A stretch of 64,000 bases of DNA from Hydnum rufescens UP504 (lineage: Eukaryota; Basidiomycota; Agaricomycetes; Cantharellales; Hydnaceae): positions 153,055 to 217,054 of the forward strand of contig MU128934.1 in the NCBI GenBank assembly GCA_014904985.1, in the 5' to 3' direction. The translations under genes and the position numbers were made by a program. Within the stretch, counting starts at the first letter, position 1, and every line of letters starts with the position of its first letter. The notes beneath the pieces are model-generated. The model was given only the letters and a program-made list of their open reading frames with translations, was not told where the DNA came from and did not search any database. Positions 9,570 through 58,184 of the stretch are shown here, one piece after another.

Positions 9570-12500
9570 ATGCCATCTAAAGACCCGCCAACCCAGCGGA
9601 CATGCACAAAGTGTATATTTCTGGTATGCCGTCTACTTACAAGCCAGCAACTGGCACCTAACAAAGCTGTTCGACCCTCACGAAAGAGGCCAAATGCAAC
9701 AGCCATCTTCTACATACGTCGAAACGATATCGCCTTCACTTCACCATTGAGTCTCCCGATACCATCACTGGACCTCGTTCGCCAAAGTCGGAGTACATCG
9801 AGGCAACACATGATGCCGTGGTGTGGAAGGATCCCTTTGGAGATGAGTTGTAAGTTTCTTTCACGCACTTCATGCTTTGCTGCTCTTCATTCACATTCTC
9901 TCGGCAGCACGGTGAATGCAACACCTATCGATTGCAGAGTGGCTATAGAGCTGCGCAAGCGCCGTTTCGGACGTTCCGGGTGGATCGTCGCATCGTGTAG
10001 TTTGGATCTCTCCTCCACGGGGGACAAAGGTGAACGAGCTCATGCTGATGTGAAGAGAGGGTCGCGCTCACGCTCGGTCTTTATCCCTGCAGAGATACGC
10101 CTCGATTTGAAAGATAACGCGAACGACAAATTCGGAGAGTTGACAATATGTGTGGCATCGTCTGTCGTATCCACTGGTGGGACTGTCCAGAATCCCAGCC
10201 GGGCTGGCGAGCAGCTAGGCCCCGGATTACCGACTATCAACGCTCTCGTGGTGACTGGTGAGGCTGTCCAGAATGCTGGCCAGACTTCCGAGCAGCTAGG
10301 TCCCGGTCAACCGACTGCCAACGATCTCGTATCCACTGTTGAGGCGGTCCGGATTGCCGGCCAGGCTGTCGAGCAGCTAGGTTCCGGACTACCGGCTGTC
10401 AACGACGCCATTCAAACTATTGCCCCACTTGCAACACAACTCACGGCCCAGTTCAATGCTTGGCAGCCCTTGCTGAGTCGCCTCGGCGCCCTTGTGAAAG
10501 TTGCGGATGCGGTCGCCGAGGCACGTTTCATCCTGAATTCCCTGGGCTCTGCGACCACTAAGAACTATTTACAAAACAGGTTCACCCCTGGATCAAGTTA
10601 GCATGGGGTATCGTCTCAGCAGCATATAAGGTACGACAAGATTCGAGTTTTGCATGTGTATACTCTCTGACTGGTGTTCCATTAGATACCTGCCGTCCAG
10701 AGCGAACGAGATGCCAAAGTGATGCATTTAGTACAGACTATGACGGATAGCTGTTCCTTTGCCGAAGAGGCCGAGGAGTTGAAGAAACGCTCAAAAAGAG
10801 ATCAAGACATCATCAACCAAATACTGCACCAAGTAATGGAGTGCACCAATTTCATTCGGGACTATTGCAAGGACAAGTCCTTCGGTATGTGGAATCCCGC
10901 ATCTTCTACTTACTCCAAGACTAATCTATGTGGGCCGCAGTCAAACGCACTGTGAAGTACACGGTTTCCCTTGTAGACGGACAGATCGATAAATACAAGG
11001 GGACCTTTGAGACTCTCCAGCGGAATCTGATTGATCATGCGAGCATACAGTGCTCCGTGATTACGCATCGCGTCTTAGACGTCGTGAATGAAGTCCGTAA
11101 GTGCTTTTTGTATGTCTTCGGTCGAAATCTGTGTTCTAAGATGGTCCACAGGGGATCTTCAAGTGCTCAGCGAAATAAAATACGCGCCGGAGGCCGGTGA
11201 CTCTTTGGATAAAGGGTGCCTGCCAGGCACACGTACCGAGATCATCGACGCCGTTGTGCGTTGGGCTGTTGGAGCGGATACGCCAGCGGTTGATTCGAAC
11301 GGCTCAATTCCATTGAGCTCTAAGGAATCGTCTCGTGTCCTTTGGCTGTGTGGGCTGGCGGGAGCGGGGAAATCGTCGATCCTTCGCTCATGCGCGAAAC
11401 GCGTTTCCGACCTTGAACGCATGGGGTCGTACTATGGCTTCAACAAGAATAAACCCCTCGCAAACCTGACGAACCTGTTCAGTACAATCGCTCTAGATCT
11501 CGCCGACCTCGACAACTCCCGGAAGCAGCGTCTGGTCGATGCTGTGAAGAACGAGACCGCGATACGAAGAAGTCTCGACTGCATGTTGCAGTTCAAACAC
11601 CTTATCATTAGATCATTCGAGGATGATAAGGCCGTGGGGGAGACCGTTGTCTTCATTGACGCCTTTGACGAATCTGGGGACGCTGAGGCTCGTGCGGACG
11701 CGCTCTCTATTCTAACAAAGCGAGCGCCAGAGCTTCCTCCGGGTCTTCGAGTCGTAGTCACTTCGAGATATGAGCCCGATATCCAAGATGCATTGCGCTC
11801 TCCGCTACCACCTGGGGTTGACCTCGTAGTTATGGACCACATCCCGACTTATCAAACCTCGCGTGATATTGCGACGTATATACACAGTGAACTCAGTAAC
11901 GTGATTGAATTCCGCATGGAGGAGCACAAGGACAAGTCCAAGAAGCAGATCGGTGCGCTCATTGAGAAGGCCGAAACTTCGTTTCAGTGGGCTGCTACCG
12001 CCTGTCGTTTCATTCGCCGGCGTTATGCTGGCGTCGACCCGTGGAGTCGGCTTCAGAAGATGCTGGATGCTGATAAAGAGCTCTATGGGCTCTATGGCGA
12101 CATCATGAAAGAGCACTGTGATCCATCCGATGAGGAGGCGGTCGAACGAGTCAAATCAATCCTAGGCCGAATCATAAGCGCTCGGGAGCCTTTATCATTG
12201 CATGCTCTTGTGCATCTAGTGCCAGCCAACTCTATCTTCACCCCCGGGGACATCCAGATCCAACGACAAATCGTGCAGTCTCTTGGCACGCTCCTTAGTG
12301 GTACGCACAGTGATGATGAGCCGATTGTGCCCCTCCACTCCTCTTATCGTGATTTCTTGTGCGATCCGAACCATAAGCAAGAGTTCTACATCGACAAAGG
12401 TGAAGCCAATCAGGACATGGGCCTGGCGTGCTTCCGAGTGATGGACCAGACCTTGACCTTCAATATCTGTCAAATTCCGACGTCGTTCCTTCGCAATGTT

Positions 12501-15289
12501 GCCATCCCCAATATTAAGGCACTCGTGGAAAAATACATCCCTTCTCATTTGTATTATGCCTGTCAATTCTGGGGCTTCCATATGTCCACAATGCCTAGGG
12601 GCGAGGTTGCTCATAAACCCTTGGAGTCATTCTTTCACAAGGATTTCCTAGCCTGGTTGGAAGTGATGAGCCTAAGACAGAGCTCCCCTCAAACTGTGTT
12701 GGCCTCTCTTAGTACCTCTGATGTAAGCATTGTTCCAATTTGAGTACATGCTGAAGCTGCAGGCTGATTCTTAACATGTATTCCCTAGATGCCTTTGAAC
12801 CTTGTTGAATTGCAACATGATGCCATGCAATTCATCTCCATGTTCTCAAGTGCCATTGCAACCAGCATGCCTCACATCTACCTCTCCGGGCTCACATTTT
12901 CTCCAGTGTCATCCCTCCTATATCAGAGGTGGCAAGGTCAATTTCCAGGAGTTGCCAAACTTGCTCAGGGGCAACTCCAGCACTGGCCAAAGATAATGCT
13001 GAGCTTAGAAGGGCACAGTGGCAGTGTGCGATCTGTTGCTTTCTCACCTGATGGCAAGCAGATTGCATCTGGCTCAGAAGACAAGACCATACGACTCTGG
13101 AATATGGAGACAGGTGCAAGCATTGGCCAGCCAATGGAGGGGCATCATGATGCCATCCTTTCCATTGCTTTCTCACCTAAGGGCAAGCAGATTGCTTCTG
13201 GCTCCTTGGATAAGACCATACACCTCTGGAATGTGGAGACAGGTGCAAGCATTGGACAGCCAATGGAGGGGCATGGTGATGCCATTGCTTCCATTGCTTT
13301 CTCCCCTGATGGCAAGCAGATTGCTTCTGGCTCTGCAGACAAGACCATACAACTCTGGAATGTGGAGACAGGGGCAACCATTGGCCAGCCAATGGTGGGG
13401 CATGATGATGCAATCCTTTCCATTGCTTTCTCTCCTGATGGCAAGCAGATTGCTTCTGGCTCCTTGGACAAGACCATAAGACTCTGGAGTGTGGAGATGG
13501 GTGCAAGCATTGGCCAGCCAATGGAGGGGCATCATGAGGCTGTCCTTTCCATTGCTTTCTCACCTGATGGCAAGCAGATTGCTTCTGGCTCTCAGGACAA
13601 GACCATAAGACTCTGGAGTGTGGAGATGGGTGCAAGCATTGGCCAGCCAATGGAGGGGCACCATAGTGTCATCTGTTCCATTGCTTTCTCACCTGATGGA
13701 AAACAGATTGCTTCTGGTTCTTGGGACAGGACCATACGACTCTGGAATGCAAAAACAAGTGAAAGCATTGGCCAGCCAATGGAGGGGCATGGTGATGCAG
13801 TCTTTCACATTGCTTTCTCACCTGATGGCAAGCAGATTGCTTCTGGCTCTGCAGACAAGACCATACAACTCTGGAATGTGGAGACAGGTGTGAGCATTGG
13901 CCAGCCAGTGGCACCTCATCATGATTCCAATCCCTACTCTGATGCTGATTCTGATGCCAATTCCAATTCTGATTCTGATCCCAACTTCAGTTCCCACTCT
14001 GATGCCAATTCTGATGTCAATTCCAATTCTGATTCTGATTCCAACTCTGATTCCAATCCCAATCCCAATCCCAATCCCAATCCTGATTCTGATCCTGATT
14101 CTGATTCTGATTCCAATTATGATTATGACAATGACTATGATTGTGAAGCTACCTTTTCCATTGCTTTCTCACCTGATGGAAAGCAGATTGCATCCAGCTC
14201 CTTGAAAACTGTGCAACTCTGGAATGTGGAGACAGGTGCAGGCATTGGCCAGCCAATGGAGGGGCATGGTGCTACTGTTCGATCCATTGCTTTCTCACCT
14301 GATGGCAAGCAGATTGCTTCTGGCTCAGCAGACAAGACCATACAACTCTGGAATGTGGAGACAGGTCTGGGCATTGGGCAGCCAATGAAGGGCCACAGTG
14401 GTACAGTCCGATCCATTGCTTTCTCACCTGATGGAAAGCAGATTGCTTCTGGCTCCTTGGACAAGACCATACAACTGTGGAATGTGGAGACAGGCATCAG
14501 CATTGGCCAGCCAATGGTGGGGCATGATGATGCAATCCTTTCCATTGCTTTCTCTCCTGATGGCAAGCAGATTGCCTCAGGCTCTCAGGACAAGACCATA
14601 CGACTCTGGAATGTGGAGACACATACCAGCATTGGCCAGCCAATGGTGGGGCATGATGAGAGCATCATTTCCATTGCTTTCTCCCCTGATGGCAAGCTGA
14701 TTGCATCAGGCTCATTGGATGAAACCATGCACCTCTGGAATGTGGAGACAGGCATCAGCATTGTCCAGCCAATGAAGAAACTCATGGCCCCATCTTGTGC
14801 ATTGCTTTCTCACCTGATGGGAAGCAGATAGTTTCTGGCTCCCAGGGCAAGATCATACAACTCTGGAATGTGGAGACAGGTGATGGCATGGGTCAGCCAG
14901 TGGAGGAGCATCATGCACCCATTGTGCCAATTACCTTCTCTCCTGATGGCAAGCAGATTGCTTCTGGCACCCCAGAAAACCCTGTCAAGGTTTCATGGTC
15001 ACCCACTGCAGAGTCTGAACACAGCCTTCAGTACCCTGTCAATCTATTCCCACTCCCACCATCCCCCTTTCAACTTGATGATGGATGGATTTTGGGTCCC
15101 AGTGATGAGCTTATTCTCTGGGTGCCAGCTGCCTACCGTGGATTCCTGGAACACCCTCACTGCCGCATCATGGGAACTCCCAACAATACTCAGATTGATT
15201 TCCAGCACCTTCAGTGTGGCATGGACTGGGTGCAATGTAAAGAACTGGTTGGTGGGGCACAAGATGCTGCTGATTTCAGGGATTTGTAG
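9570..15289 (+). CDS. NACHT-WD40 NLR-like STAND protein, frameshift near the 3' end
   Basis: Fungal NOD-like signal-transducing NTPase; family members (e.g. Podospora HET-E/D/R) act in non-self recognition and regulated cell death. Likely exons: 9570..9849 (internal structure unclear), 9908..10029, 10093..10524, 10563..10630, 10686..10884, 10941..11096, 11152..12722, 12789..15289. Order of parts: C2-like N-terminus (THDAVVWKDPFGDEFTVNA), three 27-residue repeats, a helical linker (VHPWIKLAWGIVSAAYK), NTPase with Walker A GLAGAGKSS and Walker B VVFIDAFDES, then VVVTSRYEPDI and helical STAND region, then about 14 WD40 repeats, then a C-terminal block GWILGPSDELILWVPAAYR typical of mushroom WD proteins. 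A 1-nt shift between 14770 and 14795 splits repeat 12 from 13; the first exon also mixes two frames. Could be a decayed or phase-variable allele, or sequence error. Confidence 0.82.
10167..10409 (+). repeat. Three 81-bp coding repeats (27 residues each)
   Basis: Tandem in-frame units in the NLR gene, each of the form (V)V(S/T)TG-(E/T)AVQNAGQ-(T/A)-EQLG(P/S)G-(L/Q)P-N(A/D). They sit between the C2-like part and the NTPase and probably form repeated helices in the oligomerisation or adaptor region. Confidence 0.8.
13003..14990 (+). repeat. Tandem near-identical WD40 repeats, about 14 units
   Basis: Units of about 129 bp (43 residues) with the core IAFSPDGKQIASGS-DKTI-LWNVETG-SIGQPM-GH. Units 2 to 12 differ mainly at a few positions: the three to five residues after GH, the residue between GS and DK, and the residue before LW. 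Units 13 and 14, past the frameshift, are more diverged. Such homogeneity implies recent duplication or gene conversion. Confidence 0.9.
13919..14142 (+). repeat. Asp/Ser/Asn low-complexity insertion in a WD repeat
   Basis: Reiterated GATTCTGA / CCAATTC / CAATCC hexamer-like units encode a run of Asp, Ser, Asn and Pro-Asn dipeptides. It interrupts WD unit 8 just after HHDSN and leaves the reading frame open. Microsatellite expansion is the simplest explanation. Confidence 0.85.
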
Positions 15290-32458: not shown

Positions 32459-34941
32459 TCAGCGGAAGCATTCGAGTTCAACTTTCTGACCTTGTGGGGT
32501 CTGGGAGGCCAAGTCAACTCTTGTCCTGGTCCAGATGGCTTTGAACTCTGGGTCGTTGATGTATCCCTCCTGGAAATGACGAATCATACTGGTCGAGATA
32601 GACAAATTTAGTCCTGGCAGCAGTCTCTCTAGACTTTGGATCTCCATGGTTGTGTCCAGGACACCCAGCGAAACTGTCATTGGCGGGTTGTCAGTGATCT
32701 GCAAATCATTTGGTATGACTGTCTGAGTTTGTGTAAGAACGAATATGGCCCTTCCCATGCTGGGGGAATGTTGAGCGAGACTCAAACTACTCATTTGATC
32801 ACTCTCGTTCATGACCAGTTTAGGGAGGTCTTGATCCTTGGGCAATACTACTTCAGGGGTTAGTGGTAGTCTGGACAGGGGGTCCACATTGGAATGGATA
32901 TGGCCTGGTCGATGTACTATAGTCATCCCTGGGAAGGCTGTGAATACTGCTCCCCATGCGCTAAGATGCTGGTTGGCATTTTCGTAGGTTTTTGCCCACT
33001 GCAAGGCTGCATGGTCTGTTATGAGAAGGATTTGTTCCCCCTCTATAAAGGGCAGGAACCATATTAGACTATCTTTAGCCGCTAGGGCCTCCCTTTCCAT
33101 GGCAGAGTACTGGGTTTCAGTGGGCTTGCATGTACAGCTCCAATAGGCGATAACCCTCTCCACTTGGACAGTAGTTTCTTCAAATGATTCTGCCCAGGGC
33201 CCTGGTGCTGGGTGGTCATCATGGGTCTCTGAGAGCTTCACGGTCAGATTGGGTACTGGATCCCCCTCCTTGTATGCCTTATAAAGACATTCATAGGTTT
33301 TGGTTTTGCATAGGTCACGAATTAATATGGGCTGGATCTGTTGCAAGGCTCCAGCAAGGGCCATGTCAGAGGCATCTGTGTATAGCCTGTAGCCTTGGCC
33401 ACATATTGGGTGGCCGCAGACTGGTGCCGACATTAACACTCATTTCATCATTTCGTAGGCCTCCTCGTGCTCAGCCTTCCAAATCCAGGGTGTACCCTTT
33501 TGTAACAAAATGAACAATGGTGCTGCTATTCCCAAAAAACAGGGTATGTATGCAGCAAAATAGATGGCCATGCCCAAGAAGGTTTCCAGGTCCTTATGGT
33601 GATGAGGAGTGGCCAGGGCCGCAATGGCCTGTATCTTTTCTGCATTGGTGGACAGGCCCAGACATGACACCTTTTGTCCTAAAAGTTGTATACTTCGATA
33701 CCCTACATGACACTTGTGGGGTGCCAACGTAATTCCAGACTTTTTAATGGCCTCGAGAACCATACCAATATGGTTGAGATGCTCGTCAAAGGTTCTTGAG
33801 TAGACCATGATATCATCGATGTATACCAGTGTGAATATCCACAGGTAAGGGGCTAAGATTTCCTGTATGACATGTTGGAAAATCAGGGGGCCATTCCTCC
33901 ATCCGAAGGGCATTCTTGTGAATTGATGTAACCCCTGATGTGTCCTCATGGCAGTGTAGGGTTGAGAAATACTATCAAACTCCAGTTGGGTGAACCTGGC
34001 TAGTGCATCGAAGGAGGACAGATATTGTGCCCCAGAGAGCGCTTGTAAAATGTCACTTTGCTGTGGTATTGGGAACTGGTCAGGTATGGTGGCTGCATTC
34101 AGCCTCCTCCAATCGACACAGAGTCGGTCCTTGCCATTTTGTGTACGATCAATACTGGGGCTCCCCAAGGGCTGTTTGATGGTTTGATTACCCCCTGCTT
34201 CAACCACAAGTCCAACTGCTTATCGATGAGCTCCCTTTTAGCAGGAGAGGCGATGTACGGTGCGGATGAGATAGGCTTGGTACCAGGGACTAGTTTGATG
34301 TGCACTTTGGTAGGGTGCTTGCCCAATCATACATTGAATCCGAAAGCCAGTTCATGCCTCCATAATACTTCATAGAGGCGTACATGCTGCTCGGTAGTCA
34401 GGGAGGGGTCCACGTTGATCAGGCTCTCCAAATCCTGGGACTTCCATTCTGTGGTATCACCCATCTCGGTGGTCTTCAGGCCTTCTCCAGTGAACTCCTG
34501 GGAGTCTGCACTGGTGGTCTCCTGGGGGCTCCTAGGACAATCCTTGGGGCCCATTTGGTTCAAGTCTTGTTTACTGAGCGATCCCTCTACAAGTGTGCAA
34601 ATGTATAGGGCCTTTCGTTCGAACCATTCCCTGTCTTCCGGGCTCAAGTCGGACTCCTTGCTGAGACATTGGAGGGGATCGAGCATGTGTCCCACCACTT
34701 CCCCTTTGCATAACAGTTTAGGCAAGGAAGAAGGGTTGGCAATAGGTAAAGTTAGGTCCTTTGCCATGTCCACTATACAGTCGACCGAGGCCAGGAAACT
34801 GTGACTACCCCTCCATATTATTTGTTTCTTGATTAGACATAGTCTGCTGTAATGATCGTAGTCTCCTTTAACCTGTACTTGGGCCACATGTCCTCCGGGA
34901 ATACAAGTATCTTCCAGGGCCACAATCTTCCCTGCACCCAT
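32459..34941 (-). pseudogene. Gypsy reverse transcriptase and RNase H, with linker
   Basis: 34941..34327 is the protease-RT linker; RT follows with LCVDWRRLNAATIPDQFPIP, FTRMPFGWRNGP and the catalytic LVYIDDIMVYS; RNase H begins YRLYTDASDMALAGAL and has YSAMEREALA and ITDHAALQW. The stops at 34327 and 33440 are TGA, the latter falling where relatives have an Arg (EMMK-stop-VLMSAPV). One frame change occurs near 34140. Confidence 0.92.
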
Positions 34942-46323: not shown

Positions 46324-47012
46324 TTAAAGCTCTGATGGGGTATTGCTGATGACAATAGGCTCATTTTGTTCTTTTTCTTGATCATTCAACTGCAAAGATG
46401 GCTCTTTGACTGAGACTTCCAGCTGTTTAAACACAAGTGGTGAAGGTCTGGTTGTCAGATCAACTTCCTTCCTCAATTCCTTCTTTTTCTGGCTGATAAT
46501 ATTTGCTATTTTGGCCATCCAGATGGCATGACTCAGTGAGGTTGGAACTATTGAATTTCATTGATGAAAGACACTCTGGACCTCTGCTTTCAAGGCCAGA
46601 AACCTTGGGTCTTCACTATCAACATGGGTGGACATTGAAGTAAGTGCCCCATGGAATAATTCATTGATTGCAAGATAATAATCTTCCATTGAGAAAGAAT
46701 TGTTATGCATCCTTAAAAGGATGTCTTTTAATGCATGAGTCATCTCAACTGCATGCATTTGTTGAATGCCAACAGAATCAAATTGTTTGTATAATGCTGA
46801 TGTAGTTCTTTTGAAATCTTTGATTAGGTCCTCCATCCATTTGGTAAGAACATCTGCAACATCATGAACATGGAAAAGCTCTCAATTCAAGATCTTGAAT
46901 GTCTCTTTGGATGTCTCTTGGAGATCATGACATTCTTTTTCATAGAATGCCAATTGAGAACTGACAATTCCAACATTCTTCAAGAGTTGATCAGAGATGT
47001 TAATGAATGGCT
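46324..47012 (-). pseudogene. Helical protein frames, unknown
   Basis: Minus frames 46836..46558 (MEDLIKDFKRTTSALYKQFD, HALKDILLRMHNNSFSMEDY) and 46518..46324 (ISQKKKELRKEVDLT), with related coding-like sequence up to about 47012 (KNVGIVSSQLAFYEKECHD). Coiled-coil-like; interrupted by stops. Not recognised. Confidence 0.35.
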
Positions 47013-47062
47013 TGTGTTTAATGATTAGGACTGAAGCTGCTCTGCCCTTGGTTGACATCTCT

Positions 47063-48780
47063 TGTTAGTTCGGTTGTATCCAAACTAAGGAATTGGGAGG
47101 AACCAGAAGGTGGTGGAGGTTCCAGGTCCAATGAATTAGTCCAGTCTGTAGGACTATGGCCATTTCGTATAGCCCAACAAGTTAGTAACTCTTGGAGGGA
47201 AAGAGTCTTTATGCCCACAAGGGCAAAATAGGTGGGCTTAGTCATTAAGGCTGGGGTTGCACAGTGTGTAGTGTGTAATCTGTAAGTCCACAACTCTGCA
47301 AGACGGACAGATGATGATGGTAGAAAAGATAGATTTTTGGGCTCTGCCATGGCTGGCTATCACTAGACTGATTATGTAATAAGAGATGAATCTAGCTATA
47401 AGCCAGGGCAGCACCAAACTCCAGTGGAGAAGCTTTCCACTGGGTTTGAATAAGAAGTAGAAAAGAGAAAAGAAAGAGAGAAAGGAGGCAAGAGCTATGG
47501 CTCTGCTCATGAGTCTGCCAAGTGGCCTAAGGGACTCTGGACACCACTAACACAGCCCCCCAGTCCCTTCAGCCATGAAGGGGTATTCCCTAGTATCCTG
47601 GTTCTTCGTTTAGCGGGTATTGTCAATGCCTGTTGTAACAAGCTACAGGAGGCTACACTCCAATCTTGGTAGGTGGATACATCTGGATTGGGAGAACATG
47701 ATGGTGACAACTGGATCTTCCTTGGGCAACTCCTCTCATATCTGGTAGGTCTCATTTTTCATAGTATCAGTTAGGCTATGAGCTCCCAGTTCTACGATGC
47801 ATGGCATATCGTAATCCATACGTGTGGCAATGTGTGGTTTGGTGACATTGTTTAGCCCCCATTGAAGGGTCTTGTTGTGACTCTGGTAACTGGAGACCAG
47901 CCCAAGTTTGCTTGTTTGGATGGGTTCAGCTCTGGCTGTGGCTTCCCCATGCTGCAGACAATTCAAACTTGCTGGGATATTCATGACCATGATTCCCTGT
48001 ATGCCTGGTGCATTGACAGATCTTCCCCACATCCATGGTACCTTGTGCGATGCTGGTTTGTTTGAATGTGGGGTACATCTTCCATCACCATTTCTATATG
48101 TCCCAAATGGCTCAAATGAGTTCTCCTTCTTGGGTACTTGGAACCATCCTTCTGGGTTTGTGTTTCTGCATGGAACATGCATACTGGCTATTTTGTTAGG
48201 TGGGTCTTTCCCTGTAAACATAACCCCCTTTGTTGTAGTTTTGTGGGGTGGACTGTTTTGTGACATATGCTCATTCCTTCCAGTTATGGCAGTGCTTGCA
48301 GTTGCAACAGAATGTTCAGGTTGCAAGGACCTCTGTATCCACTTGGGTTTCAGGATCCTGGTCAAGTTGAACATCCAGTGAGTTGTAGGAGCCCTGGTAT
48401 CGACAGTCTTGTTGTTTCAGTATTTTGGAGTCAAGGCTCCTCAAGTCTCATTCAAGACATCTTGAGTACCCGGCAGGTGTATGATGTAATGAGTTTGATG
48501 GTGGTAGGCCATATGTCTAAACAGCATGACCCCTTGGGGTAAGCTACAGCTTTGTTCAGTGCCTTTATCCACTGGGATGTTCAAATTTACAGCGTGGGTG
48601 CCATGTTCAGAGGGAATACAATCCTTTCTGTCCTTGAGAACATCCCTGGAGGTCTGTCCTCCTGACAAGTCTACTCTAGCAGTTACTGGCTCTTCTACGA
48701 CAGGTTCTACCCTTAGGCTTTGACCCAACCCAACCATATGAGCTCCAATGTGCACTAAGAATGGAACCTGGTATAGAAGA
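47063..48780 (-). mobile_element. Truncated LTR retrotransposon, 3' end
   Basis: 3' LTR 47063..47552 (490 bp, TG...CA) followed on the right by the polypurine tract ACTGGGGGGCTG (minus), nearly the same as in the 9,958-bp element. Beyond it are minus frames 48374..47736 (basic, GRNEHMSQNSPPHKTTTKG) and 48755..48441 with no known domain, then homology is lost. No second LTR; the 5' part is missing. Confidence 0.72.
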
Positions 48781-49440
48781 AGGATTGGGAGCTCCGATGA
48801 CTGTCAAATCAAACTCTGGTTCAGCCAGTGTGTAGATGGGAGACTGTATTTCTGTTTTTATTCAATGGGCTCAAACCAGTCAGCCATAATTGTATATCTA
48901 GTTAGGCCCTTTTGCCTTGCTTTTATTCAATCTAAGAGCGGGTTTTCAGGTGGGGGCCCACTGGGTGATTTCTTGGCATGAGACAAGGGGCCCCATGGGG
49001 CCCCTTGCTCTGAACTTGCCTTTGGGTATCAGCCCATGTATGAGACCAAGAGGTTCAAGGCCTTGTTCAAGACCAGTCAGAATAGGTACTTTCAATCAGG
49101 GTATCGGGATAGGTCCCGGCAAGCCCGGGAATGCCCCTGAATGGGTGAGTGGGCTATATGGACTTATCAGCAATTGGGATTGTTTATTTATTACTATTTG
49201 TTATCATTATCAGATTAATCCCCCTGCTTCCCCCAGATCATAACACATAATTATTCATTTGTTATTATTATACTATTATACATGTATCATAGAACTTATC
49301 CCCCCTCCCTCCTGGGGTTGCATGTTTATATTTGGCAGGGTTGTGGGTTTTTGTTCGGCGGGGTCGCAGGACTAGTTGGGGGTAGGTGCAAGCAGTGAGG
49401 TCAGAAGAATACCTAGAATAGTACATTAGTGGAAAAAAGA
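48781..49440. other. Noncoding, GGGGCCCC-bearing
   Basis: No gene seen. GGGGCCC palindromes occur at about 48953 and twice at 48990-49010. AT-rich ATTATTA runs at 49230-49290 precede the stem-loop array. Confidence 0.5.
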
Positions 49441-49448
49441 AAAGCCAT

Positions 49449-52400
49449 GCAAAAGGAGCAGCCTGTGCTGCTCCTTTTGTGCGATGTTACATATAGCCTG
49501 AGTACTTACCGTAAAAAATCACCACACCCACCAAAGCAGGTGTGGCTCATGTGGGTTCTCAGCGTTGCGTTGTTTCATGTCTTCATTGGGCGGTGGTTTT
49601 CGTTATCTGGGTGGGTCTCGTTCAGCGCGGGGTTTTGGGCAGGTCATTGTTCACGGGTTTGGTGGTCTCCATTTGGCTGTTCATTCTCATTCAGCTGCCC
49701 TTCATTTTGTTGGTGGAGGTTCAGGCGATAACCTAAAAAAATCAAGTGTTAGTTAGATGTTAAAACTGGCACAAAAAGAGCAGCCTTCGCTGCTCTATTT
49801 GCGCCACTGTATGTATAGACATTAAAAACAAATTCACCTTAAATTACCACACACCCACCGCAGCGGGTGTGTGGTTAGGGTGGTCTCTCATTAGGCGGGT
49901 GCCTGTTCAGCGCGTTATCGTTTGGTGGGGGCTCATTGGGCGGGTGTTTGTTCAGCAGGCGTTCATTCAGCAGTTGTCTATTTGGTAGATTGTCGTTTGG
50001 GGGCTCGTGTGTTCATTCGGCGGGTTCTGGTTCAGGCGATATCCTAGAAAAATCAATAATATGTTAGTTAAAATCATAACCAGCGCAAAAAGAGCAGCAT
50101 TTGCTGCTCTTTTTGCATGGTTGTGTACACTACTTACCTTATATATATTACCCCACGCACCCCGCAATGTGTGTGTGGGTTTTTTGTATGGCAGGCCTCC
50201 GTTTGGCAGTCTGGGTTTGGTGGGTTTTGGTTGGGTGGGTGTTAGTTAAACCATTACAACATGGCAAGAAGAGCAGCTTACACTGCTCTTCTTGCACCAC
50301 AAAACAAAAATAAATTTAAAAAAAACTCATCTTGTAGCACCACACACCCACCGTGGCAGGTGTGTGGCACCTCATCTTGCACCATGGCTACGCACCGTTG
50401 TTCACGTGGCTCTTCATGTGGGTAGTCCCCATGTATAATTGGTCCGGTGTAAATAGATGGGGCTGCAGGGGGTTTTGTGTTGGTATTCACATGAAAGATG
50501 AAAACCTAGAGTTAAAAATAAGTGTCAGTTAAGAAGTAAAAGCAGCGCAAAAAGAGCAGCTTTCGCTGCTCTTTTTGTGCCATTGTAGCTACTAAAAAGA
50601 AACTCACCTAGTGACCACACACCCGCAGCGGCAGGTGTGTGGTCATCTGTTTCCTTTTCTGGGCAGTTTGCTTGCGAGAAAGAATGCAACTCAACACCGG
50701 GAATTGCCAGTATCCAAAAAGCACTCGAGTGCCTGACACCACGAGTGCCGTATGAATTAGTAGCAAGTAAATGAATGTAGAATAAATAATATACAATCAA
50801 TATTTGCCCAAAAAAATAAAGAAGACCAAGAAAATCAGTCAGAGTCCAATAAGGCATGATATGCTACATTGCAAAGTGGATTGGGCGATTTCTACTGTTC
50901 AGAATCGGTCCTAATTTGAATATATTGTTCATATGTATGTATCCTACATGGGCAATTAATTATTTCGGACGTTCTCTTTATTTTTCTATTTTTCACACCT
51001 TCAATTCCCTATTTAGGGAATTGAAGGCATGAAAAATAGAAAAATAGAGAGAACGTCTGAGATAATTAATCACCCATGTAGGATACATACATATGAACAA
51101 TATATTCAAATTAGGACCGATTCTGAACAGTAGAAATCGCCCAATCCACTTTGCAATGTAGCATATCATGCCTTATTGGACTCTGACTGATTTTCTTGGT
51201 CTTCTTTATTTTTTTGGGCAAATATTGATTGTATATTATTTATTCTACATTCATTTACTTGCTACTAATTCATACGGCACTCATGGCATCAGGCACTTGA
51301 GCACTTTTTGGATACTGGCAATTCCCGGTGTTGAGTTGCACTCTTTCTTGCAACTCGTTACCACCACCCAACAAGGCAGCCACCCAGATAAGACACAACC
51401 ACACACCTGCTGCTGCAGGCATGTGGTCACTAGGTGAGTTCTTTTTTTTTCATTAGTAGATACAATGGCGCAAAAAGAGCAGCGAAAGCTGCTCTTTTTG
51501 CGCTGCTTTGAATTGTTTACTAACATATCTTTCATTATTTTCAGGCATGGTGACAACTCGCCAAATGAGGCCCCAAATGGCAACAGGACAGATGGTAACA
51601 CCAGACGACATGACAGATGGCAACGCACCAAATGGCAATGCGCCAAGCGACAATGTGATAGACAATGACACCCAATGAGTGGCCCAAGGAACCACACACC
51701 TGCTGAGGCAGGTGTGTGGTGCTATATAAGGTGAGCTCCCCCTCAAGTAGATACACCTGCACAAAAAGAGCAGCGAAAGCTGCTCTTTTTGTGCTGGTTT
51801 TAATTTCTAACTAAAGTATCAATTTTTTAGGTTATCGACTGACCTACAACCAACAAAATGAAGAAAACAACGAATGGAACGGACACTGGCCACACGAAGA
51901 CCCACCATACGAACCCCGAGCCCCCCGAAATGATGGCCCACCACACGAATACACGCCAGACGGTAACCCACGCGCCAAAGGCTACACAGCAAATGAACAC
52001 CGCGCAGGTGAAGGACTGCCCACAAAAGACATGAAACAACGCAGAGCCAACGAGTGGCCCCACGAACCACACACCCGCTGCAGCAGGTGTGTGGTATTCC
52101 AAGATGAGTTTTTATTTTATTTTATATTTATTTTTGTGGTGCAAGAAGAGCAGCATAAGCTGCTCTTCTTGTGATGCTTTAATGTTTAACTAACACACTT
52201 ATTTTTCTAGATCTTGGACTTGAACCCCACATGAACCCCCAACACCAACCCTGCGACCCGAAACCCCGCGACCTGAAACCCATGACACAAAGCCCCACGA
52301 CCCCAAACCCGTGACCCGAAGCCCCATGACCCCAAACCCGCCAAACGAAGGCCCACCGAGCCAAACCCCACAAATGAAACCGCAGAATGGGGTCCTCCAA

Positions 52401-52795
52401 GTGGAACCCCAGCCAACAACGGACATATGAACCACACCTGCTCCAGCGGGTGTGTTCATTTCAGGGTTGTTTATTTTGAGTTTCTATGTGACAGCAGCAC
52501 AAAAAGAGCAGCGAAGGCTGCTCTTTTTGCGCTGCCTTGAGTTGTAGCTAACATGCCATATATTGTAGGCCAGAAGCTGACCCCAACCCTGTACAACCCC
52601 CATCCCCAAACCTGGTGAGCGACAACCCAGCAAACGAAACCCCAGCAAGTGATGACCCGACAAACGAAACACTGGTGGGTGAGTAACACATAGGAACCAC
52701 ACCCACTGCAGCGGGTGTGGTGGTGTAAGGATTTTTTTTTATTGTAGTAGATACAGTTGCACAGAAGGAGCAGCCCTGCCTGCTCTTTCTGTGTT
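49449..52795. repeat. Array of ten stem-loop intron-like cassettes in two opposed halves
   Basis: Ten stem-loops with the core AAAAAGAGCAGC-N4-GCTGCTCTTTTT lie at 49449-49482, 49768-49805, 50085-50116, 50264-50295, 50545-50580 (read on minus) and 51468-51503, 51759-51794, 52141-52172, 52497-52532, 52759-52795 (read on plus). Reading outward from the central palindrome, most are preceded by AAG or TAG then GTGAGT/GTAAGT and followed by a CTAAC branch-like motif and a pyrimidine-rich TTTTTAG or TTTTCAG. Segments between cassettes are low-complexity, exon-like, and end in a second hairpin of CCACACACC...GGTGTGTGG. Looks like introner-type stem-loop introns; protein content unclear. Confidence 0.8.
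50545..51503. repeat. Large imperfect palindrome, about 0.96 kb
   Basis: Arms meet at 51012/51013 (TCAATTCCCTA-TT-TAGGGAATTGA). They match with high identity for about 335 bp each side, diverge over a short stretch (about 50650-50680 against 51350-51390), then match again through a second hairpin, a donor site and a stem-loop on each side. It is the mirror point of the cassette array. Confidence 0.92.
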
Positions 52796-53470
52796 ACTGA
52801 GGGTGGGCCATTTGGCCCACTGGATGCATGTATATAATATATAATATGGAAAATAAATAATAATAATAATAACAATAATAATATCAGAATGAATATTAGT
52901 AATAATATGCTATCCCATGAAGCTTCATGGGATAGCATGAATTATTACAGGAGCTTCATGGGTTTTTAGCATATAATCCTACGGCCAGGGCTGGCTGCTG
53001 CTGACTATATCCATCAGCAGGGACTCTCAGGTGATGAAGGTAGTCAGGGCTAATGGCACTGACAGTGAGGATGAATGATTCCTTGACTCTAGATATCTTT
53101 TTACTATGTGTACTATGTCAATATCTAGTTTGTCTGTCCCTATATTGAACTCTAAGAAGTAAGGGGGCTCTACTCTTAGAGACTCCTGCCATATGCACAG
53201 GGGCCCCCACTGTACACACAGGGGCCCCTGCCATGCACACAGGGGCCCCTGCTGCACATGCAGGGGCCCCTTCAGAGTAGGGTCCGAGGCCATTTCTAGG
53301 CCTTAAACATGGCTGTGGGGCCCCTGGGGCCCCTACATCAAGAGTGGGGGCCCCTCGGCATATGGGCACAGATGATAATCATACATGAGGGGCCCCTAGG
53401 GGCCCCCATGGAAATGTATCTTATTAGACTAGATAAATGCAAGGCTAATGATATCTAATTAGACATGGAT
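52796..53470. repeat. Simple repeats, palindrome and GGGGCCCC cluster
   Basis: An ATA/ATT microsatellite at about 52840-52885 is followed by a perfect 32-bp palindrome at 52907-52938 (centre AAGCTT). At 53195-53420 about ten GGGGCCCC or GGGGGCCC octamers occur, the first four in a roughly 25-bp minisatellite with CACACA spacers. No gene. Confidence 0.8.
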
Positions 53471-53495
53471 AATTGGCTGACCAGCCTGCCCCTCC

Positions 53496-53928: not shown

Positions 53929-54590
53929 TGTCAGGGTTTGTCCCTTACTCCGGTCCACTCCAGTCCACTCCGGTCCACTCCGGTCCACTCCGGGTCACTC
54001 TGGTCCTTGTCCACCCACCTCCAGTCCAGTTCTCCGCTTAGTTCCTTCGCCCAAGTCCACTTTGCTTCCGGTTTGACTCTGATCCAACCCTATCTTGGTT
54101 TCATTTCCCTTTCATTTCCCATTGCTTCCGGTTTGCCCCCTGGCCGAGTTCCTGTTCCTGTTCCTGTCCCCCTTGTAACCACCCACAGTTTAGTCGATCA
54201 CTCCCCTGTAGTATAGTCATCATGTATAAGTAGTCCGAGAGCGAAGTCCAGAGACCCCAGCTTTGGTCTCTCAGGATTTCTGCTGTTACTCCGGACTACA
54301 GGTCAGCCTTCATGTATTCCATACTCATATTACATAATCTCAGGATTTCTGCTGTTACTCCAGACTACAGCTCCGAGTATCATCCAGTTGACTCCATGAG
54401 CTTAAGGACTGCTGTGCTCATTTCCGCCTAGTCCCTTCTGGGCTGCTGGACCGCTCCTCCGACATCCCTAACCTCCTTATCTCATTCTTGCCTGGATTCT
54501 TGCAGACTTAGCCAGACTTACACCGGACTTAGCCGGAATTATTTGTGTTTACATTTGTTTGGTGCCCTTCGTCGCAGCGTGGCCCTGACA
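53929..54590 (+). repeat. Chromovirus LTR, 662 bp
   Basis: Ends TGTCAGGG and CCCTGACA form an 8-bp perfect inverted repeat. Inside are short CCGGTCCACT tandem repeats (53950-54000) and a duplicated segment of about 33 bp starting CTCAGGATTTCTGCTG at about 54271 and 54340. Confidence 0.9.
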
Positions 54591-54593
54591 AGT

Positions 54594-57500
54594 GGCCATT
54601 GCTGCATATAGTAGTGATCCAGTGAGGTTCTGATATGGTATGGATTTCATTTTGGCATGTTCAGTATCAGTTTGTGGTGATTGTGTGGTGGAGAGGGGGG
54701 TGTTCATGTCCATTGGGGTATGTGCACCATTTGCATCAGCCATACGGTATCGCTCACACATATCTTGGATGTAACGTCGTTGGGAAAGAGTTATTGTCCG
54801 GTTGGGTCGGTCGCAGATGATCTCCATTCCAAGTAGGAAGTGTGCTTCCCCAAGCTCAGTGATATCAAACCTTTCTTTGAGGCGACTCTTTATCTTGGTC
54901 CATGTGGGGCTTGAGTTTGTGGCAGCAAGCATATCATCCACATAAAGTGTGATAATGATGAGGATTCCATTGTGGTTGTACACATAGAGACATTTGTCTC
55001 CAGTGCATGCGATGAAACCAAGTTCCACCAGGGTACCATTGATGAGATCATTCCAGACCTTTCCAGATTGTTTCAATCCATACAGGGTGCGTAGTAGTAA
55101 CCATATGTTGTCTGGATCAGCCCCTATGCCATCTGGTGGTTTCATGTATATTTCTTCCTTCAGGTAGCCATTTAGGTAGGTGGTTTTTATGTCGAGTTGT
55201 TCAAGATCCAGGTCATATATTGCAGAGAGAGCACAGACAAGTTGGATTGAGGTGATTTTGGTTACAGGTGCATATGTTTTGAGATAGTTGATCCCTGGGA
55301 CTTGGCTGAATCCTTGTGCAACCAGTCGGACCTTGTGGCAGACCACATTTCCTGCAGCATCTCGTTTCAGTTTGAAGACAAGTTTACTGCCAACAAGTTT
55401 TCAGCCTTCAGGGACATCCTGTTTTTTAATGACTTCAAATGTCTTGTTTTCCAGGATTGACTGCAGTTCCTCATCAATTCCCTGTTTCCATTTGTTGGCA
55501 TCAACACCATGCATGGCTTCTTTATAGCTGCGGGGCTCATCAGTGCTTTTGGGAGTGGTTACTGCTGTGAGTGCAAATATGTTGTGTTCATGGATAGTGA
55601 TTGTTTCTGCTGTCACAGTGTTGGGCACTGTGGTAAGGTATCCAGCAGCTTGTTGGAAATTGCTCTCACTAGTGGCATTATTTAGGTCCTCTTGGCACCA
55701 TGCAGGAGGGTGGCAGTCACATTGTGGTCGTCTGGGTAGCAGATCAGGTACTGGTGCCAGTGCAGCAGGTATAGGGGCCAATTGGGGCACCTCTAGTGTG
55801 GGGGCCTCATCCACTGTGGGGACCTCATCCATTATGGAGGGTATGTCAACCAGGGTTGGCATATCATTGGCCTGGGTGGTCTCTGTATTTTCATCAGGCC
55901 AGAGGTCGATTTCCTGTGGTGCATCTTGTAGGTATGATCCCTCATTGAATTTGACATCATGGGAGATGATGATTCAATGGTCACTGATGCGCCATAGGCG
56001 GTATGCCTTGCTCCTGACTGTGTATCCCAATAGTATGCACTTGTTAGCTTTGTTGTCTAGTTTCTTTTGGAGTGCTTTGGGGATAAATGCATATGCAATA
56101 GTTCCAAATTCGCGGATCCCAAGAATGTGGGGTTGTTTCTTGGACCAGATTTCCATTGGGGTTTTATCATTTAGAGCAGCATGGGGGGATACATTTCCAA
56201 GATATGTAGCAGTGAGGGCTGCCTCTGCCCAGAAGCCATTGGACATTCCTGCTGCCTTAAGCATTGGCCTGATTTTTTCGACAATTGTTCAATTCCCCTG
56301 CTCTGACAATCCATTCTGCTCTGGTGTGTATGGAGTGGAAGTCTGAGAGGTGATCCCTTCAGTTCTGAGGTAGTGTTGGAAGTCGAGTGAAGTATATTCA
56401 CCTCCATTGTCACTGCGGATTGTCTTGATTTTACGCCCAGTCTCCCTCTCAACAGATGCTTTGAATTCTAGGAATGATGACAAGACATTGCTTTTTGCTG
56501 ATAGGAGGTATAGGAATTTTCGGCAAGAGTGATCATCCATGAATGTGACGAAGTATCGTTTGCCACCAATTGATAGTGGGAGTGGGCCACAGACATCAGA
56601 GTGAATGAGATCGAGGATTTCATTTGCAGTCATCTTGTTGTTTGGGAAGGGGAGTCGGTGTGCCTTTCCAAGGGCACAGGGTTCACAGAACTCTGGGGTT
56701 CCAGTGAGTCTACTGATGTCCTCCACCATGCCCTGATTAACTAATTGCCAGATGTTGTCAAATCCAAGGTGGCCTAGTCGTCGGTGCAGGATGTTTATGT
56801 TGATTGAGTGGGTTGTGGCAGTGTTGGCAGAGGTGTGGTTGTGTATGACATGGGCCAGGAGTCAATAAAGATCACTTGGTCCTCCTTGGGAGGCTATTCC
56901 AACTAGTGCGCCAGTGGTTTTTGACCTTATGTTGCAGTTGTCATTGTCAAATGTGAGCATGTGGTTACGCTTAGTGAGATCTGCTACTGAGAGGAGGGTG
57001 GTGGCCATGCGTTCAGTGTATAGGACATTGGCGATATAGCCATAGGTGGTATTCCCATTTATGTCCAGTTTGAGATGGATTGTTCCAATGCCCATTGCCA
57101 TAATAGAGGATGCATCACCCAGGTCGATGCTGATTGGCTTGTCTAGCTGGCGGAAGGTAGAGGTTTCAAACCAGTCACGTCGGGGAGATATGTGGCATGA
57201 ACAGCCCGAATCAATTAGGATGTCATTGAGGGCTTTGTGTGTGGCAAGGTTTGCATTTACTTTGACATTCGATGTAAGGAATGCATGCGGTGAGCCACTG
57301 TAGGTGTGTTGCTGTGCATATGCAACTGTTGGTGTTGTAGCCTTTGGTTGATTATTGAATGGAACCCCAAATTTTCCACCTCCTTTCCCTCGACAGTCCT
57401 CGGCCTTGTGTGACCTTTTTGCAGTTAGTGCATAGTGGTTGAGTAGGTTTTGGTTTGGTCTGGGAGGCTGAGGCTTGTCTTGCAGTGCAACAGCAAGTGC

Positions 57501-58184
57501 AGACTGCCCATGGATGGGGTCATCTTGTAGGAGTGATTCAGCATGAAGGAGCCAGGATTCAACATGTGCAATGGTGAGGGGAATGGTGTCTGATGTGGCT
57601 TCAACAGTGTTTGATATGAACCTTGCCCAGGTTTCCGTTTTGGGGAGGGAATGAAGTAGGAGCAGGGCTAGGAATTTGTCATCTAGGCTCTTTTTCATTC
57701 CCTGCAGCCATTGGTTCTCCATGTGTATCCAGCCAATGTGATCAGCCATTGGAGTACCATCAATGTATTTGCATTCAATTATACTGATCTTGATGTAGAA
57801 TGCTGTGACACCGGAGTGGGTGTCATGGTTCACAGATAGTATGATCTTCCAGATCTCAGAAGATGTTCCTTTGTCCCCAAACTGGGATATCATATTGTCA
57901 TCAACATTTTCCACGATGATATTGAATGCGTCAGCATTGCGTTTCATCCAAGATGCAATGGAGATTGATCTTGTGGCTGCTGCTCAATCATGGGCATCCT
58001 CAGAGATGATGGTGTTCAATACATATGGACTGGAGGGGTGAGGGCATGTTTCAATGCCAGAGAGGATATCAGAGGCACCAAGTGTTCGAATTTTGGCACT
58101 GATGCAGACCTTCCATATTGGGAAGTTTGAACTTGTAAGTCGTGGGATATGTGTCTTAATGTCGCTGGGTTCTACAGTTGTCAT
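54594..58184 (-). pseudogene. Ty1/copia polyprotein, one frame with five TGA stops
   Basis: ATG 58184. In a single reading frame: gag (FPIWKVCISAKIRTLG, WLLHAESLLQDDP), decayed zinc knuckle (SHKAEDCRGKGGG; the first Cys pair lost), protease ILIDSGCSCHIS, integrase (EFCEPCALGKAHRLPFPN, VTFMDDHSCRKFLYLL, TIRSDNGGEYTSLDF, YTPEQNGLSEQGN), reverse transcriptase (VRLVAQGFSQVPGINYLKT, DIKTTYLNGYLKEEIYMKPP, ITLYVDDMLAA, FLLGMEI). It stops at 54594 within the segment GSLLYAAMAT, where the chromovirus LTR abuts; RNase H and the 3' LTR are lost. Premature stops are at 57984, 56862, 56289, 55974 and 55401, all TGA. Confidence 0.92.

Follow-up and report, generated by a model that had tools for sequence, protein, structure and literature searches.

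A probable KDZ-like transposon of Hydnum rufescens with a central palindrome and two outward arrays of hairpin-bearing, putative introns

We analyzed a 64,000-nucleotide stretch of the Hydnum rufescens UP504 genome (the window). It contains a whole transposon copy of 4617 bp at 48872–53488, with the termini CAAACCAGTCAGCC ... GGCTGACCAGCCTG (CA...TG). The limits were set by alignment with the copies at C415 and C177, and similarity ends at both edges. Inside the element is a 682-bp palindrome (50672–51353) whose arms (50672–51011 and 51014–51353) are 96% complementary and separated by a 2-nt spacer. It is flanked on either side by a row of hairpin-bearing units pointing outward. The original prediction described ten repeated stem-loops; all ten are present, five per strand, and they are the five units in each arm of this one transposon. 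GGGGCCC, which occurs 19 times in the window, is found 12 times inside the element, always close to its ends (three copies at 48953–49003 on the left and nine at 53200–53405 on the right), and these subterminal motifs are putative transposase-binding sites. No ORF of at least 180 amino acids was found within the element.

Going outward, each unit has an exon-like segment, a hairpin (B), a donor, a second hairpin (A), a branch motif, and an AG. In the right arm (plus strand), hairpin A of unit 1 (51466–51505) lies between the donor GTGAGT at 51434 and the branch motif CTAAC at 51520–51524, with the AG ending at 51544. The corresponding features are 51759–51794, GTGAGC at 51731, CTAAC at 51807, and AG to 51830 in unit 2; 52140–52173, ATGAGT at 52104, CTAAC at 52190, and AG to 52210 in unit 3; and 52500–52529, a weak donor GTTGTT at 52466, CTAAC at 52548, and AG to 52568 in unit 4. 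The last unit (52759–52794) has GTAAGG at 52725 and is without a branch or acceptor. In the left arm (minus strand), the features are 50548–50577, GTGAGT at 50607, CTGAC at 50528, and AG to 50506 in unit 1; 50264–50295, ATGAGT at 50330, and CTAAC at 50245 in unit 2; 50084–50117, GTAAGT at 50137, CTAAC at 50067, and AG to 50044 in unit 3; 49777–49796 (the core of the hairpin), GTGAAT at 49837, CTAAC at 49756, and AG to 49733 in unit 4; and 49450–49479, GTAAGT at 49509, CTAAT at 49429, and AG to 49413 in unit 5. Hairpin B, just upstream of the donor, is clear in nine of the ten units and degenerate at left unit 3. It lies at 51398–51427 (on the exonic side of the donor; -17.2 kcal/mol, z -3.1), 51691–51720, 52066–52095, 52431–52455, and 52696–52720 in right units 1 to 5, and at 50614–50643, 50340–50367, 49846–49875, and 49521–49545 in left units 1, 2, 4, and 5.

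These positions largely bear out the splice signals that had been reported. A branch-like CTAAC, CTAAT, or CTGAC does follow nine of the ten hairpins (only the final unit of the right arm has none), and two units do have ATGAG in the donor place. Exact GTGAG or GTAAG donors, put at about seven, number six (50607, 50137, 49509, 51434, 51731, and 52725), and the two remaining donor places hold the GTGAAT and GTTGTT listed above. An AG acceptor was said to follow nine hairpins; in eight of the ten, the AG comes no more than 25 nt after the branch motif. The right-hand motifs quoted as an example exist, but at coordinates that differ from those quoted by 1 to about 8 bases. In the unit at 50264–50330, the normal acceptor is deleted in the window copy, and the next CAG is 34 nt on; in the C415 copy, the acceptor is intact.

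The near-symmetry of hairpin A makes a scan of the opposite strand a matched control. We scanned 17 elements for a strong frame, defined as a donor (GTRAG or GTATGT) plus a branch motif plus an AG, and found it in 78 of 127 units reading outward versus 1 of 130 reading inward. The intron-like frames of the original prediction are thus far above chance and strand-specific. The same holds for strong donors alone (94/127 versus 7/130) and for branch motifs alone (115/127 versus 25/130). Could the hairpins instead work at the DNA level, in recombination, replication, or transposition, with the splice-like motifs a by-product of one much-copied founder? The palindrome and the hairpins are strong DNA inverted repeats, and the homogenised look of the palindrome arms (below) would fit. 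However, the motifs are strand-specific, the donor variants are mostly donor-like (GTGAGT, GTAAGT, and GTATGT), and the spacing of branch and AG is kept while the spacers diverge, and we consider this reading improbable. In the lineage to which the window copy belongs, each arm has a unit with ATGAGT in place of a donor (11 of the 11 arms that possess the unit), and another unit carries GTTGTT; the introns therefore cannot all be needed.

The hairpin at 51468–51503 (right unit 1) pairs perfectly over 16 bp (-29.2 kcal/mol, z -6.6 versus shuffles). Across hairpins, two-sided changes were found at 9 of 29 pairs, with 26 cells versus 10.1 in shuffles (reached in 0 of 500); covariation by further pair types showed no excess (19 versus 17.6, with 125 of 500 shuffles reaching it). 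Among 122 units, at least one of which has a misassigned branch (put after the acceptor), the donor-to-branch distance had a median of 84 nt, or 46 nt after subtracting the hairpin-A stem. The shortened distance fell within the 42–85 nt zipper-stem window for 96 of the 122 units, and for only 35 of 122 under a stricter rule that also requires 20 nt from stem to branch; the window itself was set for yeast (accessible text of PMC12350175). As in the zipper-stem introns of yeast, the stem lies between donor and branch point and leaves a linker of 42–85 nt. The yeast introns sit in host genes and differ in sequence, whereas here a single stem design is repeated thousands of times. In intron 1, the branch motif may also pair with an upstream TTAGTA (mean paired probability of 0.70 versus 0.46 with shuffled spacers). 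This pairing reached p of 0.05 or less in 16 of 32 first introns versus 5 of 88 later introns; the copies are related, so the 16 are not independent cases.

Copies of the hairpin extend far outside the window: its core has 4151 exact occurrences in the 63-Mb genome. (A stricter form of the pattern matched 8 stretches in a prokaryote collection and none in viral contigs.) One of the two readings in the original prediction was units that multiply as stem-loop introns. These would be introner-like mobile introns, with the hairpin intron as the entity that enters genes and spreads. Copies in the thousands, mostly within intron frames in the sampled elements, would be expected of introners, and fungal introner-like elements are likewise structured (according to the available part of PMC8469720). 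But in a sample of 50 hairpins (of 4151, from places listed on contigs C1 and C2 only), 49 lie in arrays, and the remaining one (C1:334480) was left unread. Another listed hairpin is at most 1 kb away for 46 of the 50, and three of the four unclustered ones (L085–L087) are in arrays of variant or decayed hairpins. Nor did we find target duplications at the edges of 110 units, where the mean common word was 3.18 versus 3.24 in shuffled pairs. Neighboring exon bodies were duplicated together with their introns, and the best within-arm exon matches are between neighbors. Since neighboring units are most alike, the arrays grew by local duplication.

We reject the insertion of single units on the clustering in arrays in the 50-place sample and the lack of target site duplications (TSDs) at the 110 units, and we judge the introner reading as a whole very improbable. 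The other suggestion of the original prediction, a single gene with introns all derived from one, comes close in that duplication within arrays was local. Some known introner families are without insertion signs (TSDs or terminal inverted repeats, TIRs) at intron edges, and the fungal groups named for introners are Pezizomycotina and ascomycetes (both from the part of PMC9860276 at hand). Like introners, the element has many related, structured, apparently spliceosomal intron frames; it differs in that these were not seen dispersed singly in the 50-place sample, have no duplication at the intron edges, and are borne within a larger transposon.

We also considered that the arms once encoded a repetitive protein (with 5-residue repeats of the PPNEH type) interrupted by ordinary introns, so that the copies are a decayed gene pair, now pseudogenes. 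Repeats of 15 nt hold frames open locally, and in one lineage an in-phase frame runs through exons 1–3 with no stop fixed in its five copies. In the left arm of the C415 copy, this phase-consistent frame spans 212 amino acids (p 0.01). Overall, the longest spliced frame reached p of 0.05 or less in 5 of 27 arms; in the other 22, the longest frames were as in Markov controls. Against a coding origin, at least one exon has stops in every frame that are common to all aligned copies in each of six lineages (3–6 copies per lineage). Furthermore, most exon gaps are of a single base (120 of the 158 in well-aligned windows), and exon-1 peptides with a common frame in one lineage fall in different frames in two others. 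The fixed stops and control-like frames lead us to reject a coding array, with a partial exception in one lineage, and an origin from a decayed gene pair is unlikely.

Selection on introns in recent lineages seemed to be indicated by rates of 0.118 per site in exons versus 0.042 in introns, but for transversions in well-aligned windows this difference vanished (0.0061 per site in exons and 0.0054 in intron spacers), and we ascribe it to misalignment. The equal transversion rates imply that, once inserted, copies decay with no visible selection. For transitions, the well-aligned windows still give a higher rate in exons than in intron spacers (0.0756 versus 0.0163), which CpG decay could explain.

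The ends of the element indicate what moves. Of 30 loci, among them a hairpin-free family that has this left end too, 28 have the same first 14 bases there, and the right terminus recurs in the C415 copy and at one additional locus. The C415 copy has a perfect TSD of 8/8 bp (CTTACTAA). A TSD of 7/8, with a degenerate right end, marks a single insertion common to the copies C177 and C34, and none was seen at C120 or around the window copy. A nested insertion and the element limits both count toward the transposon reading. Termini matching CARRCYRGTCAGCCAWWWT occur 158 times in the genome, and we scored proximity to KDZ domains among the 100 of these that were listed (53 of the CAGGCTGG/CAGACTGG kind and 47 of the left-terminus kind, CAAACC). 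A KDZ domain lies within 4 kb inward of 10 of the 53 and outward of none; 9 of the 10, among the matches listed, sit 1.8–2.0 kb from the terminus. All 10 of these termini start with CAGGCTGGTCAGCCA, the 15 bases with which the right end of the element opens. Near the 47 listed left-type termini there was no KDZ domain. The near-invariant terminus, the CA...TG ends, the perfect 8-bp TSD, and the KDZ-like right end lead us to conclude from these comparisons that the mobile unit is the whole 4.6-kb element and not the single intron unit.

The KDZ transposons of basidiomycetes (Zisupton, Kyakuja, and Dileera) share the CA...TG ends, and the 8-bp target duplication reported for Zisupton has the same length as that at C415. 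The element differs from them in its palindromic core and its hairpin-intron arrays, and in that no transposase was found inside it among the best 150 of 584 candidate KDZ places. At a locus of the neighboring family (L079), none of nine ORFs has a transposase domain, with weak keratin-like and helicase matches only. Kyakuja of Laccaria makes 7-bp duplications and has no TIRs (in the accessible portion of PMC12730594). The 8-bp TSD at C415 and a short imperfect TIR are also compatible with hAT DNA transposons.

Long palindromes are usually unstable. This one was found with both arms at 38 places and with one arm at 2 (among the best 40 of 490 candidates). Its arms have a median similarity of 0.957 within an element versus 0.856 between elements, and they are 99% complementary in a distant lineage (L080), so that they look homogenised within elements. 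Membership in an Rfam family was rejected (17 matches up to E 1, 12 of them on the palindrome and none at the gathering score). We propose that the palindrome is a putative divergent promoter.

Comparison of the copies establishes fixed termini, many copies, a conserved near-perfect central palindrome, two outward unit arrays that grew by neighbor-unit duplication, and the lack of a reading frame that stays open along them. The best explanation, to which we give a probability of about 60%, is a non-autonomous KDZ-like transposon in which the palindrome gives rise to two divergent transcripts, both spliced and for the most part noncoding. The palindrome would act as a bidirectional promoter, each arm would be transcribed outward, and several introns of ~105 nt would be spliced out; the remaining RNA would be mostly noncoding and carry a B hairpin ahead of most junctions. 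Hairpin A would serve as a zipper-like stem that brings the donor about as close to the branch point as the spliceosome tolerates, and a KDZ-type transposase encoded elsewhere would move the element. As to the benefit, we suggest with considerable doubt that efficient splicing shields the transcripts from spliceosome-coupled silencing or maintains transcription of the locus and its accessibility to transposase.

The literature we searched, which did not extend to subscription papers and Repbase, yielded no comparable element. Foldback elements and MITEs are gene-poor, have inverted repeats, and reach high copy number. Here, the long inverted repeat is central and not terminal, long terminal inverted repeats are absent (the inverted repeat common to the two ends is short and imperfect), and the element has 4.6 kb with splice frames. 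The symmetrical stwintrons of Hypoxylaceae are related fungal introns that have an inverted-repeat structure and proliferate. They lie in host genes with terminal repeats of 45–55 nt (as described in the available text of PMC8469720), whereas the element has an internal hairpin and tandem arrays within a transposon.

If the units splice, they would provide thousands of near-identical natural test introns, varying in stem, donor, branch, and spacing, that are carried by a transposon and not by host genes. Introns would then multiply by unit duplication within a transposon, a route distinct from introners, alongside a long palindrome with arms that stay alike across deep divergence. The role of intron structure in the silencing of transposon transcripts would become testable; RNAi in Cryptococcus is supplied by transposon RNAs that are spliced poorly (from the accessible section of PMC5851062). 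In a bolder version, which we think is unlikely, splicing would be the payload of a gene-less transposon: the homogenised palindrome would fire divergent transcripts, and the locally duplicated zipper-stem introns of one design would be exceptionally good substrates for the spliceosome. If so, the element would stay expressed or escape spliceosome-coupled RNAi, and it would be a factory of new introns held outside genes. The element may show how a transposon uses splicing.

We found all ten predicted stem-loops in the window (G000:C26:153055-217054 of a 63.2 Mb assembly with 539 contigs). They form a single class, hairpin A (CAAAAAGAGCAGC-loop-GCTGCTCTTTTTG and variants), with five on each strand, and all ten are directed away from a central palindrome of 682 bp (50672-51353) whose arms are 96% complementary and separated by a 2-nt spacer. 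Reading outward, a unit consists of an exon-like segment, a second stem-loop (hairpin B, ACCACACACC...GGTGTGTGGT), a donor, hairpin A, a CTAAC-type branch motif, and an AG. Hairpin B, which lies between the exon-like segment and the donor, is clear before nine of the ten A hairpins. After the last right-hand unit, we noticed by eye a short, perfect inverted repeat within an AT-rich stretch (CTATCCCATGAAGCTTCATGGGATAG, 52900-52948), which is a possible candidate for the 3' end of a transcript. Elsewhere in the window, a NACHT-like (NPHP3_N) ORF and, after it, an ORF with WD40 repeats (11088-14831) resemble fungal NLR-type genes; together with the KDZ transposases described below, this pair hints at a basidiomycete. 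The window also contains pieces of Copia-type retrotransposons (RVT_2 and gag) and part of a reverse-transcriptase RNase H (54549-57947 and 32459-33439).

Both arrays lie within one element with defined ends. Copies on contigs C415 (93-95%) and C177 cease to match the window at 48872 and 53488/9. Of 30 loci compared, 28 have exactly the left end CAAACCAGTCAGCC and 29 have its first 13 bases; the flanks of these loci differ, except for one that is common to L056 and L060. The 30 loci take in a second, hairpin-free, high-copy family with the same first 236 bases (L044, L048, L050, L052, L053, L059, L061, and L064; left end at 1501-1698). Beyond the common 236 bp, this family has at least 1.7 kb of different sequence with minus-strand ORFs; the ORFs of a longer locus, L079, had no transposase match. 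In the inward direction, the right end of the window element reads CAGGCTGGTCAGCC; with the left end, this gives CA...TG termini and a terminal inverted repeat that is short and imperfect. On C415, the copy is nested in an older relative, and a perfect 8-bp duplication, CTTACTAA, lies on either side of it. The copies on C177 and C34 (about 46405-52790 and about 205095-209927) have a 7/8 target-duplication match and a degenerate right end, and they have the flank ccaggtggataac in common, which implies one insertion in a stretch that was duplicated afterwards. No target duplication was found at the C120 copy or at the window element. Just outside the latter's left end, 106 bases (48766-48871) are a reversed 99% match to one terminus of a 1.6-kb insert in the C177 copy, so another repeat adjoins it there.

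The ends link the element to Kyakuja-Dileera-Zisupton (KDZ) transposons. The genome has at least 154 matches to KDZ transposase domains (150 of 584 candidates scored) and 90 to the hAT dimerisation domain. The terminus pattern CARRCYRGTCAGCCAWWWT occurs 158 times. Among the 100 termini listed and the 150 KDZ places listed, a KDZ domain lies inward within 4 kb of 10 of the 53 termini of type CAGGCTGG or CAGACTGG, versus outward of none of the 53 and near none of the 47 CAAACC (left-end type) termini. Nine of these ten KDZ domains are at 1.8-2.0 kb, and all ten are in one orientation. All ten termini start with CAGGCTGGTCAGCCA, as does the window element's right end, which departs from CARRCYRGTCAGCCAWWWT two bases later. 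Also, 12 of the window's 19 copies of GGGGCCC are clustered near the element's two ends. On the basis of its ends and one clean duplication, not of a transposase, we conclude that this is a putative non-autonomous transposon of the KDZ type.

Both arms of the palindrome were present at 38 places and one arm at two (40 of 490 candidates scored). Similarity between palindrome arms is higher inside an element (median 0.957) than across elements (0.856, best of four comparisons); for the outer arms of the same element it is just 0.58-0.78. In L080, a distant relative, the arms span 305 nt and are 99% complementary around the same 2-nt spacer, and over 143 nt its palindrome sequence has only about 68% similarity to that of the window. 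Because of these two patterns, the palindrome arms seem to have been homogenised, or re-formed, in most lineages; in three of 17 elements, they are only 0.74-0.79 alike.

The hairpins are not confined to this locus: the exact core of hairpin A, AAAGAGCAGYNNNNRCTGCTCTTT, occurs 4151 times in the genome (backward control, 0). This pattern matches five of the ten hairpins in the window; provided that other elements are alike, extrapolation gives ~8000 hairpins in about 800 arrays. A stricter hairpin pattern matched eight stretches in a prokaryote collection (257 billion bases) and none in viral contigs. We took as a sample the 50 separate hairpins that were listed on C1 and C2: 46 had another listed hairpin within 1 kb, and the three of the other four that were read (L085, L086, and L087) all sit in arrays whose other hairpins are variants or decayed. 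This clustering (49 of the 50 sampled) argues against the suggestion in the original prediction that the units multiply as introner-like stem-loop introns, and no target duplication was found flanking 110 units. The introner-bearing fungi named in the portion of PMC9860276 consulted are Pezizomycotina (ascomycetes). Within an arm, exons match best between neighbours (scores up to 36.5 versus 19.5, medians 13 and 10), which indicates that units multiply along an arm by duplication together with their exons. The alternative proposal, of one gene whose introns all derived from one, comes close to this local duplication.

That the stem-loops lie in intron-like frames was borne out. Since hairpin A is nearly strand-symmetric, scanning the opposite strand by identical rules gives a matched control. 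In 17 elements from the 40 palindrome places (omitting the C364 copy, which is cut by a contig end, and hairpins too close to the end of the fetched sequence), a strong donor, branch, and acceptor were found outward in 78 of 127 units versus inward in 1 of 130; these units are not independent, as the elements are related to the window's. Under a looser rule, whose donor list was composed after the strict-rule failures had been examined, 123 of 133 units have both predicted splice ends, and the putative introns are 85-120 nt (median 105). In the window's lineage, ATGAGT replaces the donor in one unit per arm (11 of 11 arms having that unit), and the window element's last right-hand unit has no acceptor, both of which count against every intron being needed.

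All six lineages examined include one or more exons in which every frame contains a stop common to all aligned copies (exon 1 being defined as the 150 nt that precede the first donor). The longest spliced frames of 27 arms fit a Markov control in 22 cases, with five at p of 0.05 or less. Coding ancestry is possible for the left arm of the window-type lineage, given an in-phase frame across exons 1-3; exon-1 peptides are in one frame there and in different frames in two other lineages. Within lineages, exons do not differ from intron spacers in transversions (0.0061 and 0.0054 per site, respectively), so inserted copies decay neutrally. On the right arm of L038 (C207:66312-69648), exon 3 contains a 15-nt minisatellite of some twenty PPNKH/PPNEH-type repeats, which keeps several frames open.

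We examined covariation in 21 units: 19 of 20 representatives with <80% identity (one is interrupted by a nested insertion) and two from the window. Two-sided changes occur at 9 of the 29 pairs of the two stems (shuffled 5.8; 8/500) and in 26 cells (shuffled mean 10.1; 0/500), and 92.6% of cells are paired, versus 31-61% when slid. Further pair types were not in excess of the shuffled sets (19 versus 17.6; 125/500). The invariance of the innermost hairpin-A pairs and the splice motifs is uninformative here because the search rule required them; some outer pairs, which it left unconstrained, covary (e.g., AU to CG at columns 82-109).

This transposon architecture is real and abundant. KDZ transposons, structured introns, and palindromes are each known separately; their combination is new to us, and we found no such architecture in the open literature searched. 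As for how it might work, PMC12350175 describes yeast zipper stems as intron stems that leave 42-85 nt of linker joining donor, stem, and branch point. Hairpin A likewise shortens the donor-to-branch distance from a median of 84 nt to 46 nt, with 96 of 122 units inside that range (only 35 of 122 if at least 20 nt from stem to branch is also required), and may be a zipper-like stem that would let a long intron behave like a shorter one. The first intron of several lineages (window 51455-51530 and others) has, upstream of hairpin A, a TTAGTA that is able to pair with the branch TACTAA; the modelled pairing probability is 0.70 in first introns, versus 0.46 with shuffled spacers, and such pairing would hide the branch motif. 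According to PMC5851062, Cryptococcus turns poorly spliced transposon RNAs into siRNA. A well-spliced transposon transcript could evade that route, and our guess is that good splicing would allow this element to escape siRNA.
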